Assembly: GCA_946480715.1 (NCBI GenBank)
Contig: CAMLKK010000011.1
Span: forward strand, 1-64,000
From: an uncultured Bacteriovorax sp.
Lineage (GTDB): Bacteria > Bdellovibrionota > Bacteriovoracia > Bacteriovoracales > Bacteriovoracaceae
Length of the DNA: 64,000 bases
Direction of reading: 5' to 3'
Shown here: positions 23,667 to 55,485 of the stretch, one piece after another
How positions within the stretch are numbered: the first letter of the stretch is position 1
How the letters are laid out: each line of letters begins with the position of its first letter
Program-made: the position numbers and the translations under genes
The notes under the pieces: model-generated
What the model was told of the DNA's origin: nothing
Database searches by the model: none
The model's input: only the letters and a program-made list of their open reading frames with translations

Positions 23667-24520
23667 GGGTTTAATCCTAATTGTTTATGTAAATGTTCTA
23701 TCCATCCAATCCAGGGAGTCACATCTTTTGAGAGTGCTAATCGTGAACGAACTGTGCTTTTACACAAATAGAGTTCATGAAATTGAAGTGCAGATTTTAC
23801 TTCCTTAATGTCTTTTGAACCGAATTTTTCGTCCACAGGCTCACCCGGCATAAGTGAGTTTAAAAATTCAAATTCTTCTTGGTTGAGATGCAATTGAAGT
23901 CCTTTTCCAGAAGCAGTTTCCAAATATTGAGACCAGTAACAAATTGTTTTATGCCCAGTTGCTGATATTTTAAAGCGTTCGAAACAAGGGAAGTCCTGAA
24001 TAGTAAATGGAGTTTTAAAATCTTCTTTTTTAGAAATTTTTATCAAAGAGTTTTTTAAAGATCTCTGTTTTTTAAATTCTTCGAACTCAGTTGAAGCCTT
24101 TTGCATTTCGGCCAGGGTCCAATTGAGCTTACGGAAGTACCAGCTGAAGCAAATATAATCGTTAGTCCATTCTGATTGAATAATTTTGAGTTTTTGATAT
24201 TCATGCTGCTCGTAGATTTCGGGAACGTCCAGCATGATAAAAAATCGTTTGAACTTCAAAAATGAGAGGAATAATTCTTTAGTATCGGAATTATCGTCAA
24301 TGACAAAAGTAAGGTCTATATCAGATAAAAAAGCATCAAAAGTTGTTTTTTCAATTAACGAATTTCTGATGATTACCTTTTTTAGATTTGGAAAACGCCA
24401 TTTCAAATAAGCTGATAAAAATGGAACTAAAAGGTATTGATAAAATAACGCCACTGAAAAGTGGAAAAATTTTGCGTTTGAAAAAATAAGATGCATACGG
24501 TGGAGAATCTTATTCTTCAT
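23663..24520 (-). CDS. Nucleotidyltransferase-like protein
   Basis: A 285-residue protein. Residues 52-75 (RNSLIEKTTFDAFLSDIDLTFVID) resemble the active-site region of polymerase-beta-type nucleotidyltransferases, with the metal-binding DxD pair at Asp67 and Asp69. The usual GS pair is reduced to NS. A hydrophobic N-terminal stretch (about 18-40) may be a buried helix. It lies upstream of two radical SAM genes and overlaps the first by four bases. The substrate and even activity are uncertain. Confidence 0.45.
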   Translation of the reverse strand: MKNKILHRMHLIFSNAKFFHFSVALFYQYLLVPFLSAYLKWRFPNLKKVIIRNSLIEKTTFDAFLSDIDLTFVIDDNSDTKELFLSFLKFKRFFIMLDVPEIYEQHEYQKLKIIQSEWTNDYICFSWYFRKLNWTLAEMQKASTEFEEFKKQRSLKNSLIKISKKEDFKTPFTIQDFPCFERFKISATGHKTICYWSQYLETASGKGLQLHLNQEEFEFLNSLMPGEPVDEKFGSKDIKEVKSALQFHELYLCKSTVRSRLALSKDVTPWIGWIEHLHKQLGLNP

Positions 24521-24526
24521 GAAATT

Positions 24527-25774
24527 CTATTCCACCAACTCTTTCAACTCTGGAAATACGCTAGCGAATGATTCTTTTCTTAGTTCATCCAACTTGAGAG
24601 TGTTCTGCTTGAATAATCCCAAGAGGTGGCTGTTATCTTTTTCATCAATGAATGTAATGATGTTTTCAAAATCTTTAGCGGCCTTAATAAACATAGGCCC
24701 ACGTTGAATAAGTGTGCGTGTGAATGCACTTAATTTGTTCTTTACCAAAGTCTTTAAGTGAGCAGGAAGAACCTGTACACAATATTCATCCGGATCAAGC
24801 AACAGATTAATATTAAAATCTACCGGAGAAATAATTCTGCTTGTCACCAATTTATCGAAAAGCTCCGGAAGATAGAGCACATTCATAATATTGACTGTGC
24901 AATTTACATAGCGAATAACAGTCGGGTGATTAGTCATTAATTTCTGGAGATTTTCTTCGATCAGTTTCCACTTGGTGCCGTGTCGGAAATATTCGGCACG
25001 AGCTCCAAAATCATCGATGCTTATTCCAACTTTAACGAATGAGAACTTTGACCAAATCTCAGCGAGATTGTGTTGACCATAATTCAATTGCGCCAAGTTT
25101 GTATTATAGCTCAAGCGTATGTCGAAGCGTTGTTGTTGTTCGAGCAACTTTAAAACTTCGAAATGTTCTTTCGTGATTAGTGGCTCACCACCACCGAAAT
25201 AGATTTCTTCAGCATGCGGAATAGCAACTTTCAATTCTTCCCAGAAGTTTGGGGATTGAATTGAAACACTCTTAACTTTTTGTTCTGTAGATTTGTAATT
25301 GAAAAGTAATTGATGGTCTTCATACCAAGAACTACTCAATGAAGGGCCACAACCACGACATTTGAAATTACATAGATTGCTAAAACGGATATCGATATAT
25401 TTCAGTTCAAAATTATCCGTATTGAGAGATCCATCTTCAGCGGTATCTAAAACTTTATCTAAATGCGACTCAAATCTTTTGTTAATTGAAGTGCGCATAC
25501 TTTCAAAGCCGGAATTTTCTAAAACATAACAGCGCTGACATCCTGCTGATGGTTTATTGTTCAGCATATTTTGTCGGAGTTCTTTATATTTTTCTGAATT
25601 CCAAATTTCTTTGAGCGATTGATTTGTACCATTGCCGTAGACATTGTCATAGGGAGATACACAACAAGGGATAACAGAGCTGTCAGGCATCACGTGAAGG
25701 TGAATCCAAGGTATGAGACAAAATGTCTTGGAATCCTTCAATTCCTGTAATTCTTTTTCCAAATTTCTCTCCAT
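24527..25774 (-). CDS. Twitch-domain-type radical SAM protein
   Basis: A 415-residue protein. The radical SAM motif is Cys135, 139, 142 (SNLCNFKCRGCG), followed by IYFGGGEPLITKEHF. The N-terminal domain has FCLIPWIHLHV (Cys19), paired Cys37/38 and Cys79/82, a Cys-rich SPASM/twitch-like block placed before the core. The ATG at 25774 is preferred to a TTG just before it. It ends six bases before the nucleotidyltransferase-like gene, probably in one operon, and is divergent from a paralogue at 25848. Confidence 0.8.
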   Translation of the reverse strand: MERNLEKELQELKDSKTFCLIPWIHLHVMPDSSVIPCCVSPYDNVYGNGTNQSLKEIWNSEKYKELRQNMLNNKPSAGCQRCYVLENSGFESMRTSINKRFESHLDKVLDTAEDGSLNTDNFELKYIDIRFSNLCNFKCRGCGPSLSSSWYEDHQLLFNYKSTEQKVKSVSIQSPNFWEELKVAIPHAEEIYFGGGEPLITKEHFEVLKLLEQQQRFDIRLSYNTNLAQLNYGQHNLAEIWSKFSFVKVGISIDDFGARAEYFRHGTKWKLIEENLQKLMTNHPTVIRYVNCTVNIMNVLYLPELFDKLVTSRIISPVDFNINLLLDPDEYCVQVLPAHLKTLVKNKLSAFTRTLIQRGPMFIKAAKDFENIITFIDEKDNSHLLGLFKQNTLKLDELRKESFASVFPELKELVE

Positions 25775-25847
25775 CAACTATAATTAAGACTAGCCTAATT
25801 AGCACTGATAGTTAATCATTAAAACGTAAGACAATTTTAGGTTAAGC

Positions 25848-27131
25848 ATGGACGAAAAACCAATTGAAAAAGCATTTTGTATCCTTCCTTGGATTCACAG
25901 TTTTGTGAACAGTGACGGAAATTATCAAGTATGCTGTACAAGTGAAGAACATCACCGTGCAATCAAAGCGAATGACGGTAAGTACTTCAATATCAAAGAC
26001 AAGCCGAGCCTTGATGAGGTCATGAACTCCGAATTCATGAAGAAAGTCCGTCGCGATATGATGGAAGGCAAATGGAATCCGGTATGCGCCCGTTGCTTAG
26101 TTACCGAATTGGACAACGGTGTCAGTCGAAGAATGATCGAAAATAAAAATTACGATCATGTTATTGTTGAATCTGTTCTTCAGACAAAACCTGACGGAAC
26201 AATCCCAGTCAAATTCAAATCAATTGATTACCGTCTTGGTAATCTATGTAATTTGCAATGTCGAATGTGCGGCCCCCATTCTTCAACAGCTTGGTTGAAA
26301 GAGTGGAACAACGTAAAAATTGACAATGAAATGATGACTCCTGAGCGTAGAAAGGAACTCGAAAGTTTTGATTGGATTGAAAAAGATCATCTCTTCCAAG
26401 AGTTCAAACAAAAGCTGGAACATGCAGAACACCTCCACTTCGCCGGAGGAGAGCCCTTAATTACACCTCAGATGGCGAGAATGTTAAAATACTGTATCGA
26501 CAGTGGTTATGCTAAAAATATCACGCTGACTTACAATACTAATCTCACTAAGCTTCCTGAAAACATTTTGGAATTATGGAGAGGTTTCAAGGCCGTACGT
26601 TTGTTGTGTTCTGTAGACGGATTCGGTCCCGTAAACGATTACATCAGACATCCTTCAAAATGGGATGTGCTCGATAGAAATTTAACTTTTCTCGATCAAA
26701 ACGCTGAAAAATATCAGTTGGAAGAAATCTTGCTGTCTTGTACTGTTCAAATTTATAACGTTCTTGATCTGCCAAACCTCTTTGCTTATTTGAAGAAATT
26801 CAAAAAAGTTGTACCTGCTGCGAATTTAATTAATTTGCACATTCCAAGTTATCTTCAGTCGAGTGTATTGCCTGATGAAATCAAAGTTGTAGCGACTGAA
26901 AGATTGACTAAGTTGTACGATGAACTCAAAGATGAATTACCTGAAAGACATAAATATCTAGCAGAAAACATTCTGCAAGTTCTAAACTTCATGAATCAAA
27001 AAAATACTTCAGACCAACTTTCACTTTTTAAGAGAATCAATGGAAACATGGATAATATCAAAGGTGTAAAGATGGAGTCTGAACTGCCTGAACTTCATCA
27101 GTTGCTTAAAAAGCATACAGACTTATTTTAG
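25848..27131 (+). CDS. Twitch-domain-type radical SAM protein, divergent paralogue
   Basis: A 427-residue protein with radical SAM Cys134, 138, 141 (GNLCNLQCRMCGP) and HFAGGEPLITPQM. The N-terminal block has FCILPWIHSFV (Cys11), paired Cys29/30 and Cys80/83, the same layout as the gene at 24527. The two are transcribed divergently from a 73-base gap. AGG lies about eight bases before the ATG. The substrate is unknown; proteins of this kind often sit in polysaccharide or natural-product loci. Confidence 0.8.
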   Translation: MDEKPIEKAFCILPWIHSFVNSDGNYQVCCTSEEHHRAIKANDGKYFNIKDKPSLDEVMNSEFMKKVRRDMMEGKWNPVCARCLVTELDNGVSRRMIENKNYDHVIVESVLQTKPDGTIPVKFKSIDYRLGNLCNLQCRMCGPHSSTAWLKEWNNVKIDNEMMTPERRKELESFDWIEKDHLFQEFKQKLEHAEHLHFAGGEPLITPQMARMLKYCIDSGYAKNITLTYNTNLTKLPENILELWRGFKAVRLLCSVDGFGPVNDYIRHPSKWDVLDRNLTFLDQNAEKYQLEEILLSCTVQIYNVLDLPNLFAYLKKFKKVVPAANLINLHIPSYLQSSVLPDEIKVVATERLTKLYDELKDELPERHKYLAENILQVLNFMNQKNTSDQLSLFKRINGNMDNIKGVKMESELPELHQLLKKHTDLF

Positions 27132-31909: not shown

Positions 31910-34471
31910 TTATTCTCGACCAACAATGATCGTGTTCCATTTTTGTGAGAGTATCTTTTTGATATTTTTTTGGAAATCTTCGTGCTTCAAATTCTCAATG
32001 TCGTTATTTCCTCGATAATAGTAATCGAGTCCTTGTGATTGAAGAACTGGAACTGAGTAAATGCTGGCGTAGTCTTCATTTGTTTGAACGTTGATCAAAT
32101 TCTGGCCTTTGATCATCGTCTTGATTCTCATGAAATCTTCTTCTGGAAGACCATTCTCTTTAATTTTATTAATAAGTTCTTTAATAGCTACAAGTGCTTT
32201 GGGAACTTTGTCATGTCCAGAGGCCATGTAAATTCCGAAATAACCACCTTCAATGGCCGAGAAGTGAACAGGCTGAGCTGAATAACATAGACCTTGTCTA
32301 TCTCTCACTTCCACAAATAATTCAGATGATTGTCCAGATAAGTGAGTCGTTAACATTTTTAGATATAAATTTTCTGGTGATCCCATTTTCCCGCATGGAA
32401 TTCCATAGAAAATTTGAGTCTGTTCACGATCGAATTTGATAAATCGTTCAGCTCCAGTTGTTGATTTGTATTTTTTGAATTGAACTTTCGTACTCTTTCG
32501 AGCTGGTAGAGCATCGAATAGTGGTTTCAAGTTTTCTAAAACCTCTTCTAACGAAGCATCTCCACAGTACGAGATCAGCATTTCTTTTGATTTTAAGTTT
32601 TTCTTATGAGTATCTAAAATCTTTTTCTGTGTGACTTGTTTAATCGATTCGTTCGTCCCCAATGGATTCAAGGCATATGGGTGAGTTCCAAAGAATAACT
32701 TTTGAGCTTCTTTAAAACATTGTTTGACCGGATCTTGTTTTTGGTTAACAAGCGATCTTAATGACAATTGTTTTTCATGATTAAGATATTTTTGTGGCAT
32801 GTCCGGCTTAAGTAAAGCACCAGAGAAATGTTTAAGCAGACTGAGAAAATGTTCAGAAAGTCCATGAACTAATAAACCATAGGCATTTTTTCCTGCGAAC
32901 CCATTAATGTTTGAAGATTTTTCTTCTAACTCTTGCTTAATTTTTTCATAACTGATTTTACTGTGACCTTTCGTCAGCATTGAACTGATGAAATGATAGT
33001 AGCCGTTGTTTTTTGTAGTCTCCTCTGTCAATCCACCACGGAGATAAGCCTGAAGCACAAAAGTTGGTGTCATTTCATTGCGACGGTAAACGAGAGAAAC
33101 ACCCGGCTTGATCTTAATAAGTTTTACTTGCTGATCGTATTCTGAAGTTTCAATTTTATACTTATTGGTCGCTTTAGCCGAAAGATTGGTGCGAATTTTT
33201 GCAAGTTGAGTTTGAAATTGAGTGAGAGTTTTTTTCGCTTGGTCGCTGTTGGCCTCTTTAGGAAGCTGTAAACTTAAGTGGAAATTTTTAGAAAAAATGC
33301 TTTTTAGTGAGTGGTTAACTGCGCTTGGATGAGTCGATTTTATACGATCAATAAACTCTTCTTCGCATTTAATATCACCGTTCTGAGCATAACTATGTCC
33401 AAATGAAAATGAGAACGATTCTATTGACTCCAACTCGTAAACTTTTGAAGAGAGATATTGATTTTTAATTTTTTGGACTTCATCTACCGCTAATCCATCT
33501 TTCAAAGCGGTTTCTACAGTTTGTAAAAAGCGTTTTAAAACTTCATTCATGTTTTTATGTGGAAACACTAAACGGATAAAATGAGCACCACCATGGGCCA
33601 TGAACATCGTTGAAGCTGAAGCAACGTTGGCCAGTGTTTTATCCAAAACTAAAGATTTATAGAGACGAGATGTTTCACCATATCCCAAACAATTGATCGC
33701 AAGATCTTCACTTGCGGCTTCACGTTCATTGTAATGAGGGGCTTTCAGCACCATAGTTAAAGTGGCCATACCAACTTCTTTTTGGTGAACATCAACTGTC
33801 GGTTTGTTTTTTAATTCGAACTCAGGAAAAGAACTTTCTGGTCCTTCTGGGAGTTTGTATTGCTCAATAACCTTTTCGATCTCTTCACGGTTTGTTAAAT
33901 CACCTGCCACAATCAACATTGAGTTCGAAAGGTTGTAAAAATTATTGCGGAAAAAATTTAATTGATCGATCGAAAAGTTTTTGATCGTATCTTCGCGGCC
34001 TAAAATTTGATGAGCATATGGTCCATCGAATGCAGAACTTTGAAGTTTTCCGAAAGCAAATTGGCTTGGACTATCAATTGAGCGACGGAACTCCTCAAAT
34101 ACAACTCCGCGCTCAGGAATTAGATCCTCTTCCCTGAACATGGGATTCGCAACCATATCCATTAAAATATTAGTCGAATCTTTAAGTCTGTCAGAAGGAC
34201 TGTTTATGTAATAACAAGTGTAATCAAAAGATGTGAACGCATTTATTTCTCCACCAAAAGATTCAACTTCAAACGCGATCTGTGCACCTGGACGAGTTTC
34301 TGTTCCTTTAAAAAACATGTGCTCTAAAAAATGAGCGATACCTTCGTGATCATATTTTTCAAGCGCACTTCCGGCCCTGAACCACATTTGAACTGTAGCC
34401 GCAGTAGAACCAGGTGCATGTACGAATAGGGTTTTAAGATTGTTTTTTAGAGTAACCAGTTGATGCTGCAT
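31910..34471 (-). CDS. M16-family zinc metallopeptidase (two-repeat form)
   Basis: An 853-residue protein in the pitrilysin/insulinase family. The N-terminal half has the inverted zinc motif HxxEH (His47, Glu50, His51 in HFLEHMFFKG) and the downstream Glu near residue 127 (VVFEEFRR). The C-terminal half is a second M16 fold without HxxEH, as usual. No signal peptide is visible, so it is probably cytoplasmic. AGGA precedes the ATG. The gene ends two bases after the convergent 31372 gene. Confidence 0.9.
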   Translation of the reverse strand: MQHQLVTLKNNLKTLFVHAPGSTAATVQMWFRAGSALEKYDHEGIAHFLEHMFFKGTETRPGAQIAFEVESFGGEINAFTSFDYTCYYINSPSDRLKDSTNILMDMVANPMFREEDLIPERGVVFEEFRRSIDSPSQFAFGKLQSSAFDGPYAHQILGREDTIKNFSIDQLNFFRNNFYNLSNSMLIVAGDLTNREEIEKVIEQYKLPEGPESSFPEFELKNKPTVDVHQKEVGMATLTMVLKAPHYNEREAASEDLAINCLGYGETSRLYKSLVLDKTLANVASASTMFMAHGGAHFIRLVFPHKNMNEVLKRFLQTVETALKDGLAVDEVQKIKNQYLSSKVYELESIESFSFSFGHSYAQNGDIKCEEEFIDRIKSTHPSAVNHSLKSIFSKNFHLSLQLPKEANSDQAKKTLTQFQTQLAKIRTNLSAKATNKYKIETSEYDQQVKLIKIKPGVSLVYRRNEMTPTFVLQAYLRGGLTEETTKNNGYYHFISSMLTKGHSKISYEKIKQELEEKSSNINGFAGKNAYGLLVHGLSEHFLSLLKHFSGALLKPDMPQKYLNHEKQLSLRSLVNQKQDPVKQCFKEAQKLFFGTHPYALNPLGTNESIKQVTQKKILDTHKKNLKSKEMLISYCGDASLEEVLENLKPLFDALPARKSTKVQFKKYKSTTGAERFIKFDREQTQIFYGIPCGKMGSPENLYLKMLTTHLSGQSSELFVEVRDRQGLCYSAQPVHFSAIEGGYFGIYMASGHDKVPKALVAIKELINKIKENGLPEEDFMRIKTMIKGQNLINVQTNEDYASIYSVPVLQSQGLDYYYRGNNDIENLKHEDFQKNIKKILSQKWNTIIVGRE

Positions 34472-34563: not shown

Positions 34564-35676
34564 ATGACAAAAAAAATAGACTCTCTCTACATTCACTTTC
34601 CCTTCTGTTTGCACCTGTGCAATTACTGCGATTTTTTTAAGCGTAAAAGTGATGCATCCAAATCAGATTTAGATTTTTTTGAACAGTTTCTTATTCGAAG
34701 TTTCAATCGACATGAAATCCTGACAAAAGAATATGGTTATTCCTTTGTGCCCCTCAAAACCCTTTATATAGGAGGAGGAACACCTTCACTATGGGGTGAG
34801 AGTGGAGCTCAGTTTTTAAAGCAGTTCCTTGCTGATAGGGGAATCACTTTAGACAAAGATGTCGAATTTACACTGGAAGTTAATCCTAAGGCATGGACGG
34901 AAAAAGGAATAGAATCTTTCGAAAACGCAGGAGTTAATCGTTTTTCCATTGGTGTTCAAACTCTGAATAAAAATTTACTTCCACTTTTAGAAAGAACTCA
35001 CAACATCGATGATGTTTTTGAAACGCTCGATTTTTTCTCAAAAAGAGGTTCTAATTTTTCAGTGGATTTTATGTTGGGTCTTCCTTCTTCAGACAAACAT
35101 GGAAGAAATATTGAAGATGAGTTGAAGCGTGTTTTGCAATTCAATCCTCAGCATTTCAGTGTGTATATTTTGACAGTAAAAAGTAACTACAAACATTTCA
35201 CAACACTGCCCCATGAAGACTGGATCCATGATGAATATCTAAAAACGGCTGATTTTCTCCTTGGTCACGGATTTAACCATTATGAGGTTTCTAATTTCTC
35301 CCGTCCTTCGAAAGAATCGCAACATAATCTGAATTATTGGCGATCTCATACAGTAGCAGCATTAGGAGCTTCAGCTACTGGTTTTCTTGCTGAGAAACGT
35401 CTGCGATACAAATGGAAAACACAAGAAGAAGAAATCGAAATAGAAAATTTGACCGAGAAAGAATTTGCGCTGGAGAAGATTTACATGTCTCTAAGGTCAG
35501 ATATCGGTCTGTCTAGAGATGCTCTTTCTAAAGCTGAACATTTTGATGTTCTTGCAAAAAAATGGAATGCTTCTGGTTACCTAAAAAGATTAACAGCTGA
35601 TAAATTGCAATTAAATAGTCATGGTTTCCTCATGCTTGATTCACTCATGAACGATCTTTTTATCTATCTTGAATAG
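34564..35676 (+). CDS. hemW: Radical SAM heme chaperone HemW
   Basis: HemW binds heme and carries it to acceptor proteins; it resembles the anaerobic coproporphyrinogen oxidase HemN but lacks that activity. The 370-residue protein has HFPFCLHLCNYCDF with Cys15, 19 and 22, and YIGGGTPSLW. The length and short N-terminus fit HemW, not HemN (about 450 residues). It overlaps the convergent hydroxylase-like gene by 13 bases. Confidence 0.88.
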   Translation: MTKKIDSLYIHFPFCLHLCNYCDFFKRKSDASKSDLDFFEQFLIRSFNRHEILTKEYGYSFVPLKTLYIGGGTPSLWGESGAQFLKQFLADRGITLDKDVEFTLEVNPKAWTEKGIESFENAGVNRFSIGVQTLNKNLLPLLERTHNIDDVFETLDFFSKRGSNFSVDFMLGLPSSDKHGRNIEDELKRVLQFNPQHFSVYILTVKSNYKHFTTLPHEDWIHDEYLKTADFLLGHGFNHYEVSNFSRPSKESQHNLNYWRSHTVAALGASATGFLAEKRLRYKWKTQEEEIEIENLTEKEFALEKIYMSLRSDIGLSRDALSKAEHFDVLAKKWNASGYLKRLTADKLQLNSHGFLMLDSLMNDLFIYLE

Positions 35677-36254
35677 TGAATATTCATAATGAGATGGTAT
35701 CGATTTGTGTCTGAGATATTAACTGCTCGATGTTTACGACTCACATCTATTATATAAATTGAACCATCAGCATTGAGATGGTGTCTTTCATTTTCATAAT
35801 CAAAGAAGCAATTATCATTGGTAATGATGGGGATGTGTAAACGGAATTTTTTTTCTCCGTCACGACTATCACCATCTGTGTGCCAATAGGCTTCTGATTC
35901 ACAATGAGGTGCAAGCACAGCTATTCGTATTCGCGATAGTTGGATGTTGGGATCGGCTAATTTTATAAGCTTAACGACTTCCAAAATATAATCTTTGTAA
36001 ATTGGAGTGGGAGTCGTGAAATCGTTTTGAGTGAAAAGTTCAAATAAATCATTTTTTAATGTATGGGGCGTGTTGGGATCATTAACTTTTTCACCCGATT
36101 GCCATCCATCTTCTATAGTGCCGTTGCTAGATGTAATCGACCATCCTCCCCAAACGCCATTTTGTTTTAGATACGGTGGATAATTATCAATAACAAATTG
36201 AAGGTAGTTCTTAAGTTTAACAATATCGATTTTTTGATCGAGCCTAATGATCAT
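35664..36254 (-). CDS. Aspartyl/asparaginyl beta-hydroxylase-like protein
   Basis: A 196-residue protein with the likely Fe(II) ligands of 2-oxoglutarate oxygenases: His125-x-Asp127 (YWHTDGDS) and His175 (SRKHRAVN), and an Arg shortly after for 2-oxoglutarate. This matches the Asp/Asn hydroxylase family, which hydroxylates side chains of proteins or peptides. It is the last gene of the operon that starts with the precursor-like peptide at 38387, and its start overlaps the gene before it by four bases. The substrate is unproven; the peptide of the same operon is a good candidate. Confidence 0.65.
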   Translation of the reverse strand: MIIRLDQKIDIVKLKNYLQFVIDNYPPYLKQNGVWGGWSITSSNGTIEDGWQSGEKVNDPNTPHTLKNDLFELFTQNDFTTPTPIYKDYILEVVKLIKLADPNIQLSRIRIAVLAPHCESEAYWHTDGDSRDGEKKFRLHIPIITNDNCFFDYENERHHLNADGSIYIIDVSRKHRAVNISDTNRYHLIMNIHYSR

Positions 36255-36733
36255 TTTTTATAAATCCTTATTCCGTGCTGGAAGGATAAGCTTCTTACGC
36301 ATATCAATTCAGTATCAGGGCTTTCAAGTTCCTGAAGGGCGGCGCCATTTGATAAGAGAACGTTGAATACAGGATCTAAGCAATCGCTTAGTGATGGTCG
36401 AGGGTTATAAATAATCCATTCTGAAAAATCAGAATTCTTTAAAAGTATAGTTGTGGGAAATTCTGGAAAATTTAAAGCAATATTTTTTTTGCTGTTTTGA
36501 GATTGATGGAAATAGATCTCTAATTTGCTTTCAATTTTTTCTAATGCAGAAAGTTCGAATTCATCATTAATAAAGATGAGAAGTTTTTTTACTTTTTCTG
36601 TAGATTTCCTTTTTGAATAAAAGAATATTTTAGAATTTTGGAATTCAAGAAGTTCAGAGTAAAAAGGACAATCATAATTTTGAAATTCATTGTTCCAAAA
36701 AGTTTGGGGTGAAAAATGACTATTTATTTTCAT
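36251..36733 (-). CDS. Protein of unknown function in the precursor-peptide operon
   Basis: A 160-residue protein with no signal peptide. It has aromatic and acidic residues throughout and three Cys (CPFY, DCLD, ICVR). I do not recognise the family. It overlaps the glycosyltransferase gene before it and the hydroxylase-like gene after it by ATGA, so it is translated with both. Its conserved place suggests a role in the same pathway, but nothing in the sequence shows what it does. Confidence 0.65.
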   Translation of the reverse strand: MKINSHFSPQTFWNNEFQNYDCPFYSELLEFQNSKIFFYSKRKSTEKVKKLLIFINDEFELSALEKIESKLEIYFHQSQNSKKNIALNFPEFPTTILLKNSDFSEWIIYNPRPSLSDCLDPVFNVLLSNGAALQELESPDTELICVRSLSFQHGIRIYKK

Positions 36734-37926
36734 TCTTCACTCCAAAATGACTTATAAAGAAATTCATATTGCTCAAAATTAATTTGTCCCGATGGTGAAT
36801 ATAAATTTAGAGCTTGATTGCCTAGGATATCGCTAAATCCTGAAAAGGAATCCGAAGTGTTTACAATTTTTGATATATATTGAGAGAACTTTATATCTGC
36901 AAGTTCATCATGAATCGAGTGAGCGAATGTCTCTCGGCTGGAAGAATTTATTTCTAAAAGGTTATGAAGAGATTCGCTTGATGTTTGTTCGATTGTTAAT
37001 TCATTGTTGTCCCAGAAAACATTTTTCCCTGCGGAAAATTTTTTCCCCAGTTTAAGTGTATCTAGAAATCCACACCATTTAGTGAGAAGACATGGGCATC
37101 CGGTTGCTAAGGCTTCTAGCGGGGAGTATCCATAATCTTCGTCGTGATAGAGAGAATAACTTAAAAAGAGATCAGCTGCATTGTAATAAGCATTAAGCTT
37201 TCTGTGATCCTGGCGTTGGATGAAATGAATATTTTTGTTTTTTAATTTAGCGAGCAGTGTGGATAACTCAAAATAATATTCACCGGGGCGATACGACTTT
37301 TCAAAAAAAGTTGGATTTTCAAAATGGTCCAATGGCCCAATCAGTGCAAGATGATAGTGAGGATTATTCAATTGCCAGCGATCAAACTCTTCAATCAGCA
37401 AATGGATATTTTTTTGCGCCGAAATTCTTCCGGTATAGAGAAACAGTTTATCTTCGTTTTTTAGAGATAGCTCGTCACGTATATTTCGTCGAAGTTCTTT
37501 GGAAAAATAAAACGACTCCAAATTTATTGGAAATGGCATCACTGTCACTGATGTCGGTTGCTTCACTGTTTTTTCAATTAGTTTTTGGAAGCTTGTTGAA
37601 GCTGACACCCAGGTAACGTTCTTGCCTAATAAGGCATCTTCTAATTTTAAATAAAAAGAACTCTTGCGAATGTAATCACCAAAAAGATGAAAAACAAAAT
37701 GACTTCCAGAAGGTGTTTTCAATATGAATTGATGAAAATCTGGATGTGTAACAACCATTGGGTGAATAATGACAAAACGAGTATTAGATTTTTCTGCTGA
37801 TAAATTATTTGAAGTTATGATTTTTAAATTAGGTATATTTTTGGAATATAAACGTATTAGATTATGACTTATTTCAGTCACGCTATCTTGATCTTGAATT
37901 TCAGACGTGACGAGAACTGTTTGCAT
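36730..37926 (-). CDS. GT4-type glycosyltransferase in the precursor-peptide operon
   Basis: A 398-residue GT-B enzyme. The C-terminal half has YTGRISAQKNIHLLIEEF and the GT4 donor-site pattern Ex7E in DEDYGYSPLEALATGCP. It is a distant paralogue of the two glycosyltransferases at 38627 and 40962, sharing SLYHDEDYG and LLTKW. It lies eight bases after the PqqD-like gene. It would move a sugar from a nucleotide-sugar; the acceptor could be the peptide, another protein or a polysaccharide. Confidence 0.8.
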   Translation of the reverse strand: MQTVLVTSEIQDQDSVTEISHNLIRLYSKNIPNLKIITSNNLSAEKSNTRFVIIHPMVVTHPDFHQFILKTPSGSHFVFHLFGDYIRKSSFYLKLEDALLGKNVTWVSASTSFQKLIEKTVKQPTSVTVMPFPINLESFYFSKELRRNIRDELSLKNEDKLFLYTGRISAQKNIHLLIEEFDRWQLNNPHYHLALIGPLDHFENPTFFEKSYRPGEYYFELSTLLAKLKNKNIHFIQRQDHRKLNAYYNAADLFLSYSLYHDEDYGYSPLEALATGCPCLLTKWCGFLDTLKLGKKFSAGKNVFWDNNELTIEQTSSESLHNLLEINSSSRETFAHSIHDELADIKFSQYISKIVNTSDSFSGFSDILGNQALNLYSPSGQINFEQYEFLYKSFWSEE

Positions 37927-37933
37927 GAAAACT

Positions 37934-38233
37934 CTACGTCGAGCTTTGTGGATTCTCGTGAAAGCTCACTAGTTTGAAATTTTCTAATTCGTTCAATAGA
38001 TCATCAATTTCTTTGTTGAATAGACCAGATGCAATTTTTCTTTCCATTTCAACTTCGAGGACAATTTCAGAAAGCTTTCTATCACCGGTGAATTTTTTGC
38101 AAATATCAGCAGCAACGCCATCAAGTGAAAAACCTCTATTAGTATTAGAATTGAAGAGGAAAAGTTCTTCACGACTTGTATTGCTTGGGAAGATTTGGGC
38201 TTCTAATTTCGGATAGTGATTAGAGTACTTCAT
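37934..38233 (-). CDS. PqqD-like peptide-binding protein (RiPP recognition element)
   Basis: A 99-residue protein with the PqqD winged-helix pattern: LFNSNTNRGFSLDGVAADIC then a LSEIVLEVE helix, IDDLLNELENFKLV at the end. PqqD-like domains bind the leader of a precursor peptide and bring it to the modifying enzyme. The ATG at 38233 starts one base after the stop of the peptide gene at 38235. An earlier in-frame codon (38275) is inside that gene and is unlikely to be the start. Confidence 0.7.
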   Translation of the reverse strand: MKYSNHYPKLEAQIFPSNTSREELFLFNSNTNRGFSLDGVAADICKKFTGDRKLSEIVLEVEMERKIASGLFNKEIDDLLNELENFKLVSFHENPQSST

Positions 38234-38234
38234 T

Positions 38235-38387
38235 TTAATAACAAGCACCGGCCCCGACTGGGCTTGAAGGCACAATAAGACTGATAATTTGAATTGCGGT
38301 CAGCGGCTTTAGTGTGCCAAAGTAAGGTTTTTCAACCTGCCCTTCGTCACTACCTTTTGGCTGACTATTTTCATCTTCTTTTTTCAT
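38235..38387 (-). CDS. Short precursor-like peptide, possible RiPP substrate
   Basis: A 50-residue reading frame, too short to be listed by most gene finders. AAGGA (38397-38401) lies nine bases before the ATG, and a promoter-like pair lies at 38410-38437. The first 20 residues are charged and polar (MKKEDENSQPKGSDEGQVEK). The rest is hydrophobic and ends SSPVGAGACY. A leader-then-core layout directly before a PqqD-like gene is typical of RiPP precursors. No Cys except residue 49. Alternatives: a small membrane peptide or a chance frame, although the ribosome binding site and tight coupling argue against chance. Confidence 0.6.
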   Translation of the reverse strand: MKKEDENSQPKGSDEGQVEKPYFGTLKPLTAIQIISLIVPSSPVGAGACY

Positions 38388-38409
38388 CAATCTTTATCCT
38401 TATAATCTC

Positions 38410-38437
38410 AGTATAATGTAAAAGCGCTGATTTACAA
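38410..38437 (-). promoter_or_regulatory. Candidate promoter of the precursor-peptide operon
   Basis: On the minus strand TTGTAA (38432-38437) and TATACT (38410-38415) are 16 bases apart, both matching four or five of six consensus bases. The distance to the ATG at 38387 is 22 bases. An inverted repeat CCTA-N7-TAGG (38439-38453) lies just upstream. Confidence 0.45.
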
Positions 38438-38626
38438 ACCTAGTTTAATTAGGATGACTAATTACTGACAGTTGGGAGCATTATTTAAACAAATAATCAA
38501 AAATGGCCGACGGTAGCGGTAGGTTATTGCCAGTATTTATGGCCACTAGCTCTCCAAAACAAAAAAAGGATGGAATTATCAAGGACTTCATTGAGATAAT
38601 ATATGTCACTAGAATAAGGACTGTTA

Positions 38627-39970
38627 ATGAAGCTGTTGCTGATAAAGAGCCGGGATGAATCCAGTTGGGGAAGTTGTAAGGTCATCTCACCTAACTTGCA
38701 TGAACTTTACAAACAGTTGAGCATTCACGAGATCGAATGGTTCAGCATTCCACAAGAGTTAATTCGATCAGAGCTTGGTTCTAAGAAATCTTCAATTGAA
38801 GAACTTAAAAATAAAATTTCCAGTTGGAAGCCGGATCGAATTATATTTTTAGATCATCTTCCAGTTCCTTCAAGCATTCTAGGTCATCTCTCACTGCATA
38901 TGCAGTTGAGAAAACTTCCACCTCTTATATTTCACATTTATGGTGATTTTACGTATTTTTCATCGGAGTGGCTTTTTCTTAATACTGAACTTCGAGAACA
39001 TCCAATTAGATTCATTGTTGCATCTGAATCACAAAAACGTTTATTGGAATTTTTTCTTGAAGGCACTCATTCATCAGTGAGTAAATTGTGTTTTCCTGTA
39101 AATGAAAATGATTATTTTTTTGACTTAAAAGAAAGATTAGAAGTTAGAGAAAATTTGAATCTTGCTCAAGATGATTTAGCGGTTCTCTATTCTGGTCGCA
39201 TTAGTTTACAGAAAAATGTTGATACCTTAATCAGAAAATTCGCTGAAGAGAGATCGCGAAATCCAAAATTGAAGCTTTTTATAGCTGGGGCGTTTGATGA
39301 TGTTGGTGCGGATTTTTTGGGTTACAGCACTTACCACGGTTACATGTTCCATAAAATGCATAATCTGCTAAAAAGTTTGGATCAGGATGTGGTTAAGGAC
39401 ATCCATTTTTTGGGAAACCAGAAAAAAAATGATTTACGACGATTGAAAGCAGCGGCCGATTGTTTCGTGAGTTTAAGTCTCTATCACGATGAAGATTATG
39501 GAATGTCACCTGCAGAAGCACTATGCACCGGTTTGCCTTCTCTTCTAACTGACTGGGGAGGGTATAGCTCATTTGCAGGCAATCAAGAATGGTCATGCAA
39601 ACTGGTTGACGTAGACATCACAGAATTTGGTCTTGAAATTGATATTGATAGTGTCGGTAATTTTCTTTCAGATATTGCTGTTGAAAAAAGAGATATGGAA
39701 GAAGGAAAAGAGTTACGAAGAGAATTACGATCTAAAAAATTTCAAGAAGCCTTTTCAATAAAAGGTAACGTTCCAGTTTTACAAAGCATCCTTGAACAAG
39801 ACATAAATCCATTTGAAGGTTTTAATTGGTATTTAGAACAGTATGCTAATGCTCTGGGAATGAACTGGTCAAAGAGCAAACTCAATAAATTTCTAAATCC
39901 CGATCGCCGAAGTTTTTATTACAATGTTTATAAAAACTATATCTCTGCTTTAAAAGGAACTGAAAAATGA
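38627..39970 (+). CDS. GT4-type glycosyltransferase, first copy
   Basis: A 447-residue GT-B enzyme. It begins with SWGSCKVISPNLHEL, shared with the copy at 40962. The donor domain has LYSGRISLQKNVDTL, FIAGAFDDVG and the Ex7E motif in DEDYGMSPAEALCTG. AAGGA lies six bases before the ATG. It overlaps the next gene by ATGA. The pair of this gene and its partner is repeated directly downstream. The acceptor is unknown. Confidence 0.8.
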   Translation: MKLLLIKSRDESSWGSCKVISPNLHELYKQLSIHEIEWFSIPQELIRSELGSKKSSIEELKNKISSWKPDRIIFLDHLPVPSSILGHLSLHMQLRKLPPLIFHIYGDFTYFSSEWLFLNTELREHPIRFIVASESQKRLLEFFLEGTHSSVSKLCFPVNENDYFFDLKERLEVRENLNLAQDDLAVLYSGRISLQKNVDTLIRKFAEERSRNPKLKLFIAGAFDDVGADFLGYSTYHGYMFHKMHNLLKSLDQDVVKDIHFLGNQKKNDLRRLKAAADCFVSLSLYHDEDYGMSPAEALCTGLPSLLTDWGGYSSFAGNQEWSCKLVDVDITEFGLEIDIDSVGNFLSDIAVEKRDMEEGKELRRELRSKKFQEAFSIKGNVPVLQSILEQDINPFEGFNWYLEQYANALGMNWSKSKLNKFLNPDRRSFYYNVYKNYISALKGTEK

Positions 39971-40962
39971 CAAAGCAAAAAGAAATTATTCAGTGGAGCT
40001 ATGATTTCATTCAAAACTATTATTTGAACAATACGGAAACGATTACTGATCAAGAGCGAACCTATCTAAGTTATTTAAGTCCTTTTGCTGATAAATATTT
40101 TGGTCCAACGAATCCGGCCTTAATTTTCGGTGGAGTTGATGTGGCCCAACTCATGAAAAAAAACATTTGGACCATTAGAGATGGACTTATTCCATTGTCG
40201 ATGTTTTTTCGTGATAACACACTTAAACCTGACAAAGTAAAACTCATGATTCACAAAGACCTCTGGTTTATCGTGCCTGAGGAATGGAGATCATCTGTAA
40301 CCTTTTACGAAATTGTTGCGAACACAAATTACTCTCAGAAAAATCCACCAAAGCGCATGATCATCATGGGGAGCCCAAACGAAACTTTAGCAGACCCAGA
40401 TGAATTTGTTGAAGACATTGAGGGAATTGCAAAATCACTTGGGCGCAAAAACATCGATGCAATGGAGATCATTGGTTTCTTCCCTAATAAAAGAACAGAT
40501 TTATGGGGAAGATGGCAGGATGAAAATATTTTTAGTTATGCCAAAGTCCTATTCAAAGAATTTAAACTGGATATCAAGTTTCCGGAATGGCAAATGCTAA
40601 AGAATGAAATGAATCTTAAAGATACTGTATATTGCGAAATTAACAGAGGTCATTTTATTAAAGATTCATTTCCTCTACATTTGTTTTTGTCGAGAGGGGC
40701 AGGTCTGCTGGATTCAACAAAAGAGAAAGCACCTCTCCTAGAAATAAATACAATTCCATTGAGTCTTTATCACAAAATTAAAACTTACAGTTTGGATGAA
40801 AAAAATTGTCCTCAATATATTGATCCACTTTCTGATGATCAATTACCGTATTTAAGAAAGATAATTGAGAAAGGTACTAATCCTAGAAATATCGGTGCAG
40901 GCTGGGAGAAGTGGTATGGCACATATGTTAAGCGCTACTATAAAAATAATGAGCTGATTTAA
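39967..40962 (+). CDS. Unknown partner protein of the glycosyltransferase, first copy
   Basis: A 331-residue protein I do not recognise, with no signal peptide. Stretches such as LMIHKDLWFIVP, DPDEFVEDIEG, FPNKRTDLWG and GHFIKDSF recur in the copy at 42299, marking likely functional sites. It follows its glycosyltransferase with a four-base overlap and precedes the next with a one-base overlap. The pairing suggests it forms a complex with, or acts next to, the glycosyltransferase. Confidence 0.7.
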   Translation: MTKQKEIIQWSYDFIQNYYLNNTETITDQERTYLSYLSPFADKYFGPTNPALIFGGVDVAQLMKKNIWTIRDGLIPLSMFFRDNTLKPDKVKLMIHKDLWFIVPEEWRSSVTFYEIVANTNYSQKNPPKRMIIMGSPNETLADPDEFVEDIEGIAKSLGRKNIDAMEIIGFFPNKRTDLWGRWQDENIFSYAKVLFKEFKLDIKFPEWQMLKNEMNLKDTVYCEINRGHFIKDSFPLHLFLSRGAGLLDSTKEKAPLLEINTIPLSLYHKIKTYSLDEKNCPQYIDPLSDDQLPYLRKIIEKGTNPRNIGAGWEKWYGTYVKRYYKNNELI

Positions 40963-42299
40963 TGAAAAAAAATATTCTTATCATACGTTCTTCGAAGCTT
41001 TCATCTTGGGGAAGTTGTAAGGTTATCTCTCCCAACCTACAAGCAGCTTATGAGTATCTTAAGGGGGAAGACCTAGAATTGACCTATTTTGATATTCCTG
41101 AACTTTTCTTAAAAGAAGAATTTATTCACGGACAAAACATCATTGAATCGCTAGTTAATCTAATTAAGCAGAATAATTTTTCAGAAATTGTCTTAATCGA
41201 CCATGTTCCTAATCCACCCAAGATTTTACTCTATTTTGAGTTTTATATTGATTATAACAAGCTCCCACCATTAGTCTTTCATGTTTACGGAGACTTTACA
41301 TTTTTTGCCAATGATTGGCAGAGACTCTCACAGAAATTAAAAGGACATCCTGTTAAGTTTATTGTTGCATCGGAATCACAAAAAAAATTAATGAACTTTT
41401 TCTCTGAAAGCGACATTACATTAGAGCAGTATTTGTTCCCAGTTAATGAGAAAGAATATTTTTTCAATGAAGAAGAGCGAGAGCAGACGAGAAAAAAATT
41501 CGGAATTAATTCTGATGAGAAGGTTGTGCTCTATAGCGGCCGAGTAAGCTTACAAAAAAATGTCGATCTTTTGGTACAGGAGTTTCAGGAAATATATAAA
41601 TTCTCAAAAGGGAAGGCCCACCTCTGGATTGCTGGGTCATTCGACGATATCGGTGCAACTTTTATGGGGGTTGGAACAAGGGAAGGTTATCTATTTTCTA
41701 AGATGCATAGTCTGCTCGAAACTTTCGATTCCGGATGCAGAAAAAATATTCACTTCTTGGGACATCAAAACAAAAAGCAATTACGACAATTGAAAAATGG
41801 TGCTGACATGTTTGTAAGTCTGAGTCTTTATCACGATGAAGATTATGGAATGTCACCTGCTGAGGCGCTGAGCTGTGGATTACCAAGTTTATTAACTGAC
41901 TGGGGAGGATATTCTTCATTTGCTAACTCCAAGTGGGATTGCTATTTGATGCCCGTCACTCTTACGCCATACGGACATTTACTTAAGGTCGATACATTTC
42001 TGGATTTCTACAAGCGATTTAGCCAAGAAACAAATTTAAAAAGACGTGCACAAAGAGCAAATGATTTTAGCTCCGAATTTGGAATTGTTGGATCATCGTC
42101 TAAACTGAAAAGTATTTTGATGAAGCCATTTAGTAAGTTTGGCGGGTTCAAATGGTCTCTTGGATATTATTCAAACGAATTCTGGGCAGTAAGGATTTGG
42201 AAAGAATTAAGCAAACAGCTGACACCTTCAAGTGACACCTTTTATAATGAAGTTTATCAACATTACATTTCTGGTAAGACAGAAAATAAGTGGGACTAA
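40962..42299 (+). CDS. GT4-type glycosyltransferase, second copy
   Basis: A 445-residue paralogue of the gene at 38627, beginning IIRSSKLSSWGSCKVISPNL, with LYSGRVSLQKNVDLLV, WIAGSFDDIG and Ex7E in DEDYGMSPAEALSCG. The C-terminal donor domain is more alike than the N-terminal acceptor domain, as expected if the two act on different acceptors. The ATG overlaps the previous stop TAA by one base. Confidence 0.8.
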   Translation: MKKNILIIRSSKLSSWGSCKVISPNLQAAYEYLKGEDLELTYFDIPELFLKEEFIHGQNIIESLVNLIKQNNFSEIVLIDHVPNPPKILLYFEFYIDYNKLPPLVFHVYGDFTFFANDWQRLSQKLKGHPVKFIVASESQKKLMNFFSESDITLEQYLFPVNEKEYFFNEEEREQTRKKFGINSDEKVVLYSGRVSLQKNVDLLVQEFQEIYKFSKGKAHLWIAGSFDDIGATFMGVGTREGYLFSKMHSLLETFDSGCRKNIHFLGHQNKKQLRQLKNGADMFVSLSLYHDEDYGMSPAEALSCGLPSLLTDWGGYSSFANSKWDCYLMPVTLTPYGHLLKVDTFLDFYKRFSQETNLKRRAQRANDFSSEFGIVGSSSKLKSILMKPFSKFGGFKWSLGYYSNEFWAVRIWKELSKQLTPSSDTFYNEVYQHYISGKTENKWD

Positions 42300-43291
42300 T
42301 GACAGATCAATATGTTCAATGGGGCTTCGAGCTCATAAAAAATTCATACCTCAATAAAAAACAGCACAGTGATTCCAAGGATGAGCTCTATCTGCATTAT
42401 TTATCACCATTTTCCCAAGAATTCTTTGGTAGTCATTCGCCAGTGTTATTGTTTGGTGGTCACGATTTTAAAGAGGTAGAAAAAAATAAGACAGTCTCAT
42501 TAAGAGACGGGCTGATACCACTTTATATATTTTTTGAAACATTCAAGGCAAAAGACTTTTCATGTGAATTGATGATTCATAAAGATTTCTGGTTCATTGT
42601 TCCAGATGACTGGCGAGAAAAAGTTCGGTTCTATAATGTTCGTTCTAAGAATGAATATAGTAAGTCTAATTTACCTTCTAAAATTATAGTAACAGGTATC
42701 CTTAACTCAACGTTTGTTGACCCAGATGAATTTGGTGAAAGCCTCGATCATTTGGCGAATACTTTGGGCAGAGAAAATCTTAAAAATATTGAAGTCATTT
42801 CTTACTTTCCCGATAAAAGAAACGATCTGTGGGGATCTTGGGAAGAAGACAATATACTTCGCTATTCAAAGATGATTTTCGAAAAACTTAAGCTAGATAT
42901 TAAAACTCCAACATGGAGAGATCTGACAAATGAACTTGAATTCTTAGACTGTCTTTATTATGAAGTGAATGCAGGTCTATTTATTAAGGATAGTTTTGTA
43001 CAATTCAAGACACTTTCAAAAGGTGCTGGATTGCTTCAGCAGAATTCAGAAGTTGGACCTTTCAAAAAAGTAGGCGAGATTCCAGCTTCACTTTACCACA
43101 CATATGATATTTATAAGCTCGATGTGGATAAAGTCGGAAAATATTCTGCTCCATTCAGTCGTGAAAAAATTCCTTATTTTAAGAGAATAGCTGAGAATGA
43201 TTTCAATGGTGTTCGTATCAATATGTATTGGGAGCAGTGGTTTGCAAGCTATCTAAAGAAAGTTATCAAAGATAGAAAGCTTCAAAAATAA
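42299..43291 (+). CDS. Unknown partner protein of the glycosyltransferase, second copy
   Basis: A 330-residue paralogue of the gene at 39967, with matching LMIHKDFWFIVP, DPDEFGESLDH, FPDKRNDLWG and GLFIKDSF. The ATG at 42299 overlaps the preceding TAA by one base and has GGGA upstream; an in-frame GTG at 42290 is less likely. Its stop directly abuts the stop of the convergent ABC permease gene. Confidence 0.7.
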   Translation: MTDQYVQWGFELIKNSYLNKKQHSDSKDELYLHYLSPFSQEFFGSHSPVLLFGGHDFKEVEKNKTVSLRDGLIPLYIFFETFKAKDFSCELMIHKDFWFIVPDDWREKVRFYNVRSKNEYSKSNLPSKIIVTGILNSTFVDPDEFGESLDHLANTLGRENLKNIEVISYFPDKRNDLWGSWEEDNILRYSKMIFEKLKLDIKTPTWRDLTNELEFLDCLYYEVNAGLFIKDSFVQFKTLSKGAGLLQQNSEVGPFKKVGEIPASLYHTYDIYKLDVDKVGKYSAPFSREKIPYFKRIAENDFNGVRINMYWEQWFASYLKKVIKDRKLQK

Positions 43292-46502: not shown

Positions 46503-47840
46503 CTAATAGATGGAATAGACAAAATTAATATTTTTTTCAAAAGCTCCCAGGAAAAAAATCATTCCGCCAAGTACGAAAAAATAAATTAACCTCAGCCAGT
46601 TCGGACTTGAGTGGAATTTTTCCATAAATGTATCAAATGAATAACGCTGGAAAATTTCATAAGCCACTATAGCCATAACACTGATTAAAATAGAGCTTCG
46701 GTTGGCCATGAAGTAATGAATAAAATTACCTTGAAAATAAACAAGGCTCTTAATGATAGCCTGAAATTGATCAACGCTATTTGATTTGAAAAGGACGCCT
46801 GGTACAGATATGAGAATAGTATAAAAGAACAGCCATTGAAAAAATTTTATTAAAGTTGTTTTTGGTTTTTGTGGGAATAATTTTCTCCACTGATAATTTA
46901 AAGCGATCAATAGAACTTGGATGATGGCGTATAAAAAGTAAGTAAGCTTGATTCCATGCCAGAGGGCGAATACGTTGAATGTGATCAGCATCAGAAACGT
47001 AGGGCCAAACTTACTTATTCTGGTTGTCAGTAATGGATAAAAAACATATTTTCTGATCCAGCTGGTAAGTGACATGTGCCATCTTTTCCAAAACTCAATT
47101 ATTGAACTCACTTGAAATGGTCGGTCGAAATTTTGAGGCAAATTCAATCCAAATACCAACCCGATTGCAAGAGCCAGATCAGTAAAGCCTGAAAAGTTAG
47201 CATAGATCTCGTATTTGTTTGCAAGAAAAGGAATGAAATAATTCTTCTCTGGTTGAAGTGAGGTATAGAGATCATTCGTTAAGAAACTAAGGTTGCCTGA
47301 GATTACATAAATTTTAAAAAGTCCTATGAAGGCTAGAACTAGTGCTTTTGTAATATCTCTTGATGAAAAAAGAATTGGTCGAGCAAATTCTTTAAAACTT
47401 TCACCCGAAACAATTGGTCCCGTGGCGAAGTTTCCCCAAAAAAAAGACAGTGAAAAAAATTGATGGATAGAGATGTTCTCTGAATGAAGATTTTTGGATT
47501 CTATGAGAATTGCGATCTGTTGGAAAACAAAAATTGATAGTCCCAATGGAATCAAAATATCATTTGTTTCAGGGAGTATATATTTGAACCAAGCGAGAAA
47601 AATTATATTCAAAAAGATGGCAGTCAACTTCAGCCAATTGATATTTGACATGCGAACGACGAAAAAATCTATAAGTGCTAAAACAATAAACCCCAGAATA
47701 AATTTAAAATTTATACAAGCTAAGTAATAGAGTGAAACTGTTGAAAGCAGGGCCCATCGCTTGGCAGGATTGAGGAAAAGTGCAAATAAAAATGCAACAG
47801 CAGTTAAAAATAGTATTAAAATAATAGAAACAGAGGCCAT
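46503..47840 (-). CDS. MBOAT-family membrane O-acyltransferase (DltB/AlgI-like)
   Basis: A 445-residue inner-membrane protein with about ten hydrophobic segments. The catalytic His is in NVFALWHGIKLTYFLY (about 290-305), and FWKRWHMSLTSWIRKYVFYPL is the DltB/AlgI signature. It moves acyl groups across the membrane to a cell-surface acceptor. It stands divergent from an AMP-ligase gene with only 20 bases between, and with the carrier protein and SGNH-type gene it forms a Dlt-like module. Confidence 0.88.
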   Translation of the reverse strand: MASVSIILILFLTAVAFLFALFLNPAKRWALLSTVSLYYLACINFKFILGFIVLALIDFFVVRMSNINWLKLTAIFLNIIFLAWFKYILPETNDILIPLGLSIFVFQQIAILIESKNLHSENISIHQFFSLSFFWGNFATGPIVSGESFKEFARPILFSSRDITKALVLAFIGLFKIYVISGNLSFLTNDLYTSLQPEKNYFIPFLANKYEIYANFSGFTDLALAIGLVFGLNLPQNFDRPFQVSSIIEFWKRWHMSLTSWIRKYVFYPLLTTRISKFGPTFLMLITFNVFALWHGIKLTYFLYAIIQVLLIALNYQWRKLFPQKPKTTLIKFFQWLFFYTILISVPGVLFKSNSVDQFQAIIKSLVYFQGNFIHYFMANRSSILISVMAIVAYEIFQRYSFDTFMEKFHSSPNWLRLIYFFVLGGMIFFLGAFEKNINFVYSIY

Positions 47841-47860
47841 GTGGCATTCCGAGTTTATTT

Positions 47861-50365: not shown

Positions 50366-50526
50366 CTTCCTAGAGCAAGTGAGTTTGGTCTTGAGGTTTT
50401 GTTGAATCATGCATTCTAAGAATAACACCATTTAGGAATGATGCAGAGTCTATTTCATGAGACTTCTTTATAAAAAGGGCGAATGAAGTTACAATGAATT
50501 AATCTACTTAGTTGAGGTCTTAGAAT

Positions 50527-51585: not shown

Positions 51586-51597
51586 TGGATAAATTTA

Positions 51598-55456: not shown

Positions 55457-55485
55457 TAAACAATTATCCTAGTCTCGAGGTGATT

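Follow-up and report, generated by a model that had tools for sequence, protein, structure and literature searches.

A probable RiPP family of Bacteriovorax-like bacteria combining a PqqD-like protein, a glycosyltransferase and a hydroxylase with a short peptide

The peptide operon

The DNA analysed here, called the window, is a stretch of 64,000 nucleotides (positions 1 to 64,000, forward strand, of contig CAMLKK010000011.1, assembly GCA_946480715.1) from an uncultured Bacteriovorax sp. Its minus strand carries a row of five genes for a 50-residue peptide, a PqqD-like protein, a glycosyltransferase, a protein of 160 residues (UNK) and a 2-oxoglutarate hydroxylase, which a sequence-only reading had proposed as an operon for a ribosomally synthesised and post-translationally modified peptide (RiPP). 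We consider it likely that they belong to an uncharacterised RiPP family. The features of the locus, with the grounds for each in brackets, are:

38235..38387, minus strand: precursor peptide gene, 50 amino acids from the ATG, core type A (family conservation, purifying selection, AAGGA upstream)
38271..38321, minus strand: conserved leader block FGTLKPLTAIQIISLIV, residues 23-39, presumed recognition sequence (motif conservation; putative PqqD binding)
38238..38270, minus strand: core PSSPVGAGACY, residues 40-50, presumed modified part (Ser/Thr at +2, C-terminal Tyr)
37934..38233, minus strand: predicted discrete RiPP recognition element (PqqD-like), 99 amino acids (profile, PDB and fold searches)
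36730..37926, minus strand: predicted GT4 glycosyltransferase, intact EX7E motif (Pfam, motif)
36251..36733, minus strand: UNK, 160 amino acids, most likely a shortened member of the GT4-partner family (hhalign chain)
35664..36254, minus strand: predicted Asp_Arg_Hydrox-type 2-oxoglutarate hydroxylase, HxD...H and Arg conserved (Pfam, motif)
38397..38401, minus strand: AAGGA, ribosome-binding-site-like, 9 nucleotides before the peptide ATG (read from the sequence)
38627..43291, plus strand: two GT4 and partner pairs (447/331 and 445/333 amino acids), divergent from the peptide operon (linked; role in the pathway putative)

One base separates the peptide gene from the PqqD gene and seven bases separate the latter from the GT4 gene, while the GT4/UNK and UNK/hydroxylase junctions are ATGA overlaps; the stop of the hydroxylase gene overlaps a convergent gene at 34564-35676, HemW-like by eye. 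Coordinates and overlaps thus agree with the end-to-end arrangement first described, except that the gap before the GT4 gene had been put at eight bases. The promoter-like pair said to precede the genes is present (TTGTAA-16-TATACT, 38437-38410), but it is no more than chance would provide: the region 35000-39500 holds 15 promoter-like sites against 15.3 +/- 3.6 in shuffles, and because of this match the pair was rejected as evidence and carries no weight. The five-gene operon itself is confirmed.

A peptide family with one leader and three cores

A profile of 11 peptides, searched against a protein database (1877 candidates), recovered 65 family members, the window's own peptide and 64 others. 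All 65 lack both a functional name and any Pfam domain. For the window peptide and for the 160-residue protein, Pfam and NCBIfam gave no match at the curated cut-offs. The N-terminal part is variable in all 65 peptides and is followed by the block FGxLxPLTxxQ(I/V)xxLL and by a core of 11-23 residues. Within FGxLxPLTxxQ the residues F, G, P, T and Q never vary (65/65), and the C-terminal residue is always Tyr (65/65). Three core types stand behind this leader: type A, PSSPVGAGACY in the window (n=26, one Cys each); type B, GTTSSNSSYGGY (n=21, without Cys, Pro-free, 4-6 Ser/Thr); and type C, NSDNSAGACACACACGGPCY (n=18, 4-6 Cys, 1-2 Ser/Thr). The cores end in CY or GGY, those of types A and C closing in Cys-Tyr, and their second position is Ser or Thr in 59 of the 65. 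A Cys before the core is found in 3/65 peptides. Of the distinct type A cores, seven in all, two contain Asp or Asn; the window core has neither.

The window peptide frame is a conserved gene under purifying selection. In ten pairwise comparisons of five type A genes, taken over the last 29 codons, the proportion of synonymous differences (pS) was 0.56-0.89 against 0.09-0.21 for non-synonymous ones (pN). With this excess and with 65 database proteins, the expectation that the frame be kept in relatives alongside its neighbour genes is borne out. What was found is hence a genetically encoded short precursor with a conserved leader and a variable core, as a RiPP demands.

Scanning genomes with six GT4 orthologues yielded 18 loci, ten of them positive with the peptide profile: cores are of type A in L001-L004 and diverged in L006, L008, L009, L012, L014 and L015. 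The former four, from assemblies named Bacteriovorax or Bacteriovoracaceae, also hold the closest GT4 relatives of the window, which places the window near the Bacteriovorax group. No further precursor was found in the window: the profile gave one frame only, and small frames beside three other places lack the leader motif. Weak peptide matches in genomes G118, G247 and G339 were dropped, the leader motif being missing from those loci on both scanned strands. The related peptide of genome G013 lies outside the 65; its end is long, rich in Cys and Gly and has Trp as last residue, and Ser replaces the leader Thr.

The PqqD-like recognition element

The 99-residue protein of the window matched PqqD (PF05402) with an E of 2.5e-4 and 21.8 bits, just under the Pfam cut-off of 23.4. 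The same model is matched by seven of the ten members of its family at E <= 0.01, the best at 3.5e-8, and the family profile retrieved the solved PqqD 3g2b from the PDB (E 4e-4). A structure model (predicted local distance difference test score, pLDDT, 87.2) placed TbiB1 with its leader peptide first in the fold search (E 1.0e-3, probability 1.00, template modelling score, TM, 0.69/0.76), followed by TruD and PqqD, the nuclear magnetic resonance structure of PqqD giving E 0.022, probability 1.00 and TM 0.69/0.72. Lasso B1, MibB and a sactipeptide enzyme came further down, with unrelated proteins intermixed from rank 8. Both kinds of search support the PqqD-like character claimed at the outset, and the modelled protein is a RiPP recognition element (RRE) whose predicted fold is the winged helix known from solved RREs.

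The portion of PMC12710340 consulted describes binding of many RREs to a W/Y/LxxP/L/I sequence. The YFGxL or FGxL of the leader block appears loosely similar to it. Among 12 loci mapped around a leader-motif peptide, nine have the peptide and PqqD genes side by side on one strand (window, G001, G002, G004, G005, G007, G008, G011 and G014), and G003, G012 and G013 do not. An RRE beside its precursor, a second mark of RiPPs, is thus present. Because relatives keep the peptide together with the adjoining genes, and because the 99-residue protein is PqqD/RRE-like, the RiPP reading is well supported; that the small peptide is the substrate of the modifying enzymes is our inference.

Glycosyltransferase and partner proteins

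The window glycosyltransferase matches Glycos_transf_1 (E 2e-23), and EX7E, which we take to be the motif of GT4 glycosyltransferases, is intact in 6/6 orthologues, window's included; on these two grounds it is assigned to GT4. The 160-residue UNK is most likely a shortened glycosyltransferase partner, as judged from a chain of alignments through 280-residue proteins and from the existence of GT4-partner fusions (four proteins at three loci: L008, L009 and two in L010). UNK aligns with the 280-residue proteins that occupy the same place in type B operons (hhalign 85.7%, E 5.5e-6), and these align with the 331/333-residue GT4 partners (99%, E 5e-18); directly, UNK and the latter give a weak match (55%, E 1.2e-4). 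The 280-residue partner has no match in NCBIfam or Pfam. The model of the 331-residue paralogue (pLDDT 68.6) resembled known folds weakly, GT-B and sugar-nucleotide enzymes coming first and nothing in the partner fold searches being significant, and a GT-B-like fold of the partner family is put forward as a hypothesis. The weak fold likeness extends to the GT-B proteins GtfA/GtfB, Asp1 and Gap1, presumably glycosyltransferase/partner proteins as well. One or two GT4 and partner pairs, or a fused pair, lie at most ~10 kb from the peptide in G002, G004, G005, G007, G008, G011 and G014.

Oxygenases and radical SAM enzymes

The window hydroxylase exceeds the cut-off of Asp_Arg_Hydrox (PF05118; E 2e-8, 34.5 bits against 22.6), and HxD...H and Arg are conserved in 5/5 sequences, which points to the Asp/Asn beta-hydroxylase superfamily with the metal-binding residues kept. 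The clusters of relatives include a second oxygenase, OXY, with WHxDE...HR in 6/6. Its profile found no meaningful PDB match and no Pfam or NCBIfam match; OXY is placed in the hydroxylase superfamily because it aligns with the window-type hydroxylase (hhalign 93%, E 2.9e-7) and shares the WHxD...HR motifs.

Two further families of the relatives are radical S-adenosylmethionine (SAM) enzymes: F7, with a SPASM domain, and F9, fused to an HExxH zincin. In F7 the motifs CxxxCxxC and C-x2-C-x5-C-x3-C occur in 6/6, and the latter is linked to peptide modification in the section of PMC3023750 at hand; with 35.1 bits, F7 exceeds the 27-bit cut-off of TIGR04085, the model of the SPASM domain. In F9, CxxxCxxC is found in 5/6 and HExxH in 6/6. 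Against the NCBIfam maturase equivalogs these proteins remain under the cut-offs, the best scores being 60.7 of 340 bits for F7 and 90.5 of 370 for F9. One F9 copy of G014 (L052:6879-8528) has lost CxxxCxxC and kept the HExxH zincin, on a contig that also carries another PqqD and another Cys-rich peptide (L030). In G013 (L049:7866-10689) the two parts of F9 are separate genes, the radical SAM gene on one side of the Trp-ending peptide and the zincin gene on the other.

Neither F7 nor F9 lies within the window's 64 kb. At 21663-27131, ~11 kb from the peptide, the window has four radical SAM genes (two SPASM) and a nucleotidyltransferase-like gene (by eye); these radical SAM genes group with neither family. 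A further, operon-like run, at 50527-54485 on the plus strand, encodes an NMT1-like binding protein, an unknown protein of 195 residues, an AspH-type hydroxylase, a radical SAM enzyme and a second AspH-type hydroxylase. Relatives of its first three genes occur in the 40 kb around the peptide of G004; near the run in the window the peptide profile revealed no leader-motif peptide.

Cluster variants in relatives

The peptide-PqqD-GT4 order of the sequence-only reading is uninterrupted in the window and in G001, and was not kept at the other mapped loci, five of which (G002, G004, G005, G007, G008) insert OXY to give peptide-PqqD-OXY-GT4-partner. In G002 and G004 the hydroxylase gene is the last of the operon and F7 and F9 adjoin; in G011 and G014 the F7, PqqD and peptide genes are contiguous. 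A SPASM radical SAM gene belongs to the peptide cluster in G002, G003, G004, G011, G013 and G014, and G001 has one elsewhere, so that the unusual pathway without radical SAM chemistry proposed earlier is unsupported as a trait of the whole system; the absence of such a gene is a local one. In the type B loci G005, G007 and G008, genes for an ABC-2 permease and an ATPase (Pfam run on the G005 pair) follow the partner gene.

The short operon form is that of the window and G001. It could be a degenerating remnant, in which radical SAM, zincin and OXY genes have been lost and the maturation of the peptide is incomplete. In its favour, G002 has F9 and F7 between HemW and hydroxylase, where the window shows the direct overlap, and CxxxCxxC is gone from one of the two G014 F9 copies. 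On the other side, the five window frames are open with the GT4 and hydroxylase motifs intact, the peptide is under purifying selection in 4/4 pairs with the window and is kept in the close relative P0032, and G001 still has F9 with OXY on one separate contig and F7 on another. We regard such decay as very unlikely. Contamination of these G001 contigs from G012 is not indicated, their DNA identity to G012 being 73-91% against 74-82% for the peptide contig, although contamination from another source may have occurred.

Co-occurrence across genomes

In a sample of 129 genomes of the class, 11 matched the peptide profile at E <= 0.01, and 10 of these are real; for a phylum sample of 368 genomes the figures are 14 and 11. 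Ten of the 11 positive class genomes have one match each and G014 has two. The other families follow the peptide to different degrees. OXY is found in 11/129, namely all ten peptide genomes and, weakly, one other. PqqD is found in 18/129, the nine strong matches all in peptide genomes and the other nine weak. The hydroxylase is found in 9/129, with five strong matches, all in peptide genomes; it is absent from the type B genomes (Cys-free and Pro-free), missing also in G003 and weak in G012, and its absence from Pro-free genomes fits an action on Pro without proving it. For the partner family the number is 61/129, matches stronger than 1e-90 being confined to exactly the ten peptide genomes (next best 5.6e-41). 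F7 (10/129, seven strong) is present in 7/7 class peptide genomes with core Cys and in 0/3 without, a coincidence expected by chance once in 120 if the genomes were independent; F9 (9/129) has six strong matches, all among the seven Cys-core genomes.

These distributions bear on the proposal that the locus serves a surface glycan, which the peptide would only accompany as a small membrane or regulatory protein. A hydrophobic stretch of the peptide (by eye), the GT4 paralogues, the polysaccharide-type exporter of relatives, an MBOAT gene nearby and a partner family wider than the peptide would suit that proposal. Against it stand the RRE beside a short peptide whose block is fixed and whose Cys/Gly/Ser-rich end varies, which is a RiPP signature, the radical SAM genes that track the core Cys, and OXY in 10/10 peptide genomes with a single weak occurrence elsewhere in the 129. 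We hold the surface-glycan explanation to be quite improbable.

Other neighbours were looked at. The MBOAT gene stands in a row at 46503-50431 with genes for acyl-activating-enzyme-like, 77-residue carrier-like and 336-residue proteins, a row similar to an acyl-transfer set of the Dlt type (all but MBOAT by eye). An HprK-like gene at 55480-56517 (TIGR04352, 11.1 bits) has relatives near the peptide in G002, G003, G004 and G012. The M16-like peptidase at 31910-34471 (name by eye) was rejected as a dedicated leader peptidase: it is unspecific, because 124 of the 129 class genomes have it against 10 with the peptide.

Proposed pathway

The likely reading is thus a RiPP family whose core would be glycosylated and hydroxylated, with Cys- or Tyr-directed radical chemistry where Cys is present. 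We propose the following course. The 50-residue precursor would be made and its block FGxLxPLTxxQIIxLL bound by the PqqD-like RRE, which would present the C-terminal core to the enzymes. GT4 and its partner, shortened in the window, would add a sugar to the core, the likeliest acceptor being a Ser/Thr two or three residues in (S41/S42). The AspH-like hydroxylase would oxidise a core residue; Pro40/Pro43, Val or Tyr are favoured because PSSPVGAGACY contains neither Asp nor Asn, and hydroxylation of Asp/Asn is disfavoured in the window core for the same reason. In relatives with Cys cores, the SPASM enzyme and the radical SAM-zincin fusion would join, with a Cys- or Tyr-linked change and a cut of the leader as the probable results. 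With the short operon of the window, the radical enzymes might come from elsewhere in the genome, or the pathway might do without them. In the Cys-free relatives, the polysaccharide-type ABC-2 exporter after the operon suggests export of a glycopeptide.

Several observations weigh against this pathway. Weaker relatives of the partner occur in 51 further class genomes without the peptide, and GT4 paralogues in G006, G009, G010 and G015, where no peptide matched, so that GT4 could act on a glycan. Type C cores have 1-2 Ser/Thr and six of the 65 cores lack Ser/Thr at +2, which makes the glycosylation site a guess. The three Cys-free genomes may be one lineage, and the link between F7 and Cys rests on ten genomes. 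In G012, PqqD and F7 lie ~20 kb from the peptide; in G003, a 2.6 Mb assembly, the peptide, OXY, GT4, partner and F7 are present, and PqqD (E <= 0.001), F9 and hydroxylase were not found. All relatives with gene context are metagenome assemblies, and the product is predicted from genes alone.

The product may instead be a small glycosylated redox cofactor derived from the C-terminal Tyr, as in mycofactocin, and not an exported glycopeptide. Tyr at the C-terminus of 65/65 peptides, preceded by Cys in types A and C, would fit such a cofactor, as would the single peptide match in 10/11 positive genomes and the RRE, SPASM, zincin and GT genes side by side in G002, G004, G011 and G014. It is harder to reconcile with type B, which has neither Cys nor F7, with a glycosyltransferase of GT4 and not of group 2, with a core that varies over 11-23 residues, unneeded for a cofactor, and with the ABC-2 exporter after type B operons, mycofactocin being given without a transporter association in the extract of PMC3023750 examined. 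We judge this alternative unlikely.

Returning to the modified-peptide pathway, its most extended form is offered tentatively, as possible and on balance doubtful: GT4 and a GT-B-like, catalytically silent partner would read the RRE-presented peptide and glycosylate its near-constant Ser/Thr, AspH-type oxygenases would hydroxylate Pro/Tyr, and radical SAM enzymes would be added or dropped with the core Cys, yielding exported glycopeptides of Bacteriovorax-like bacteria.

In the precursor family one leader is combined with three natural core types, and therefore the tasks of the enzymes can be read from the genes that track particular residues. If true, the pathway would add a glycosyltransferase-plus-oxygenase route to RRE-guided peptides and would furnish a phylum whose fame rests mainly on predation with a peptide product; it also provides a natural test of AspH-type oxygenases on residues other than Asp/Asn in RiPP cores.

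Comparison with known systems

TIGR04157 (glyco_rSAM_CFB), which we take to belong to a radical SAM RiPP context of Bacteroidales, is the second-best NCBIfam match of the window glycosyltransferase, at 48.3 bits against a cut-off of 400, and its precursor and phylum are others. Glycosyltransferases are mentioned in two Bacteroidales clusters in the part of PMC10352776 at our disposal. Within Bdellovibrionota, antiSMASH found RiPP clusters (PMC8067016, in extract), and the cluster described here may be among those automatic detections. In the titles and abstract openings of the literature surveyed, neither the peptide family nor the gene combination was found described.

PQQ (pyrroloquinoline quinone) biosynthesis likewise has a discrete PqqD-fold chaperone beside its peptide, but the window protein scores 13.7 bits with the PqqD equivalog TIGR03859, whose cut-off is 46. 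The maturases PapB (of a ranthipeptide), HxsB and CcpM are those most alike to F7 and F9, and type C cores are Cys-rich, whereas the equivalog scores fall far under the curated cut-offs. Mycofactocin, a glycosylated RiPP cofactor (PMC7491314, in the portion seen), shares more. According to the passages of PMC3023750 used here, its short precursor ends in Tyr and clusters with a small putative peptide-binding protein, a radical SAM enzyme with C-x2-C-x5-C-x3-C and a glycosyltransferase, the precursor end being an invariant Cys-Gly-Val-Tyr. The present family differs in that: (i) the glycosyltransferase is of GT4 and not of group 2; (ii) no core ends in CGVY; (iii) AspH-type oxygenases are added; (iv) the place of the creatininase-family protein is taken by a zincin that is part of a second radical SAM enzyme, as a fusion, and (v) there are three core types. 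Hence, the family is closest in gene content to mycofactocin while departing from it in the features that define that system.

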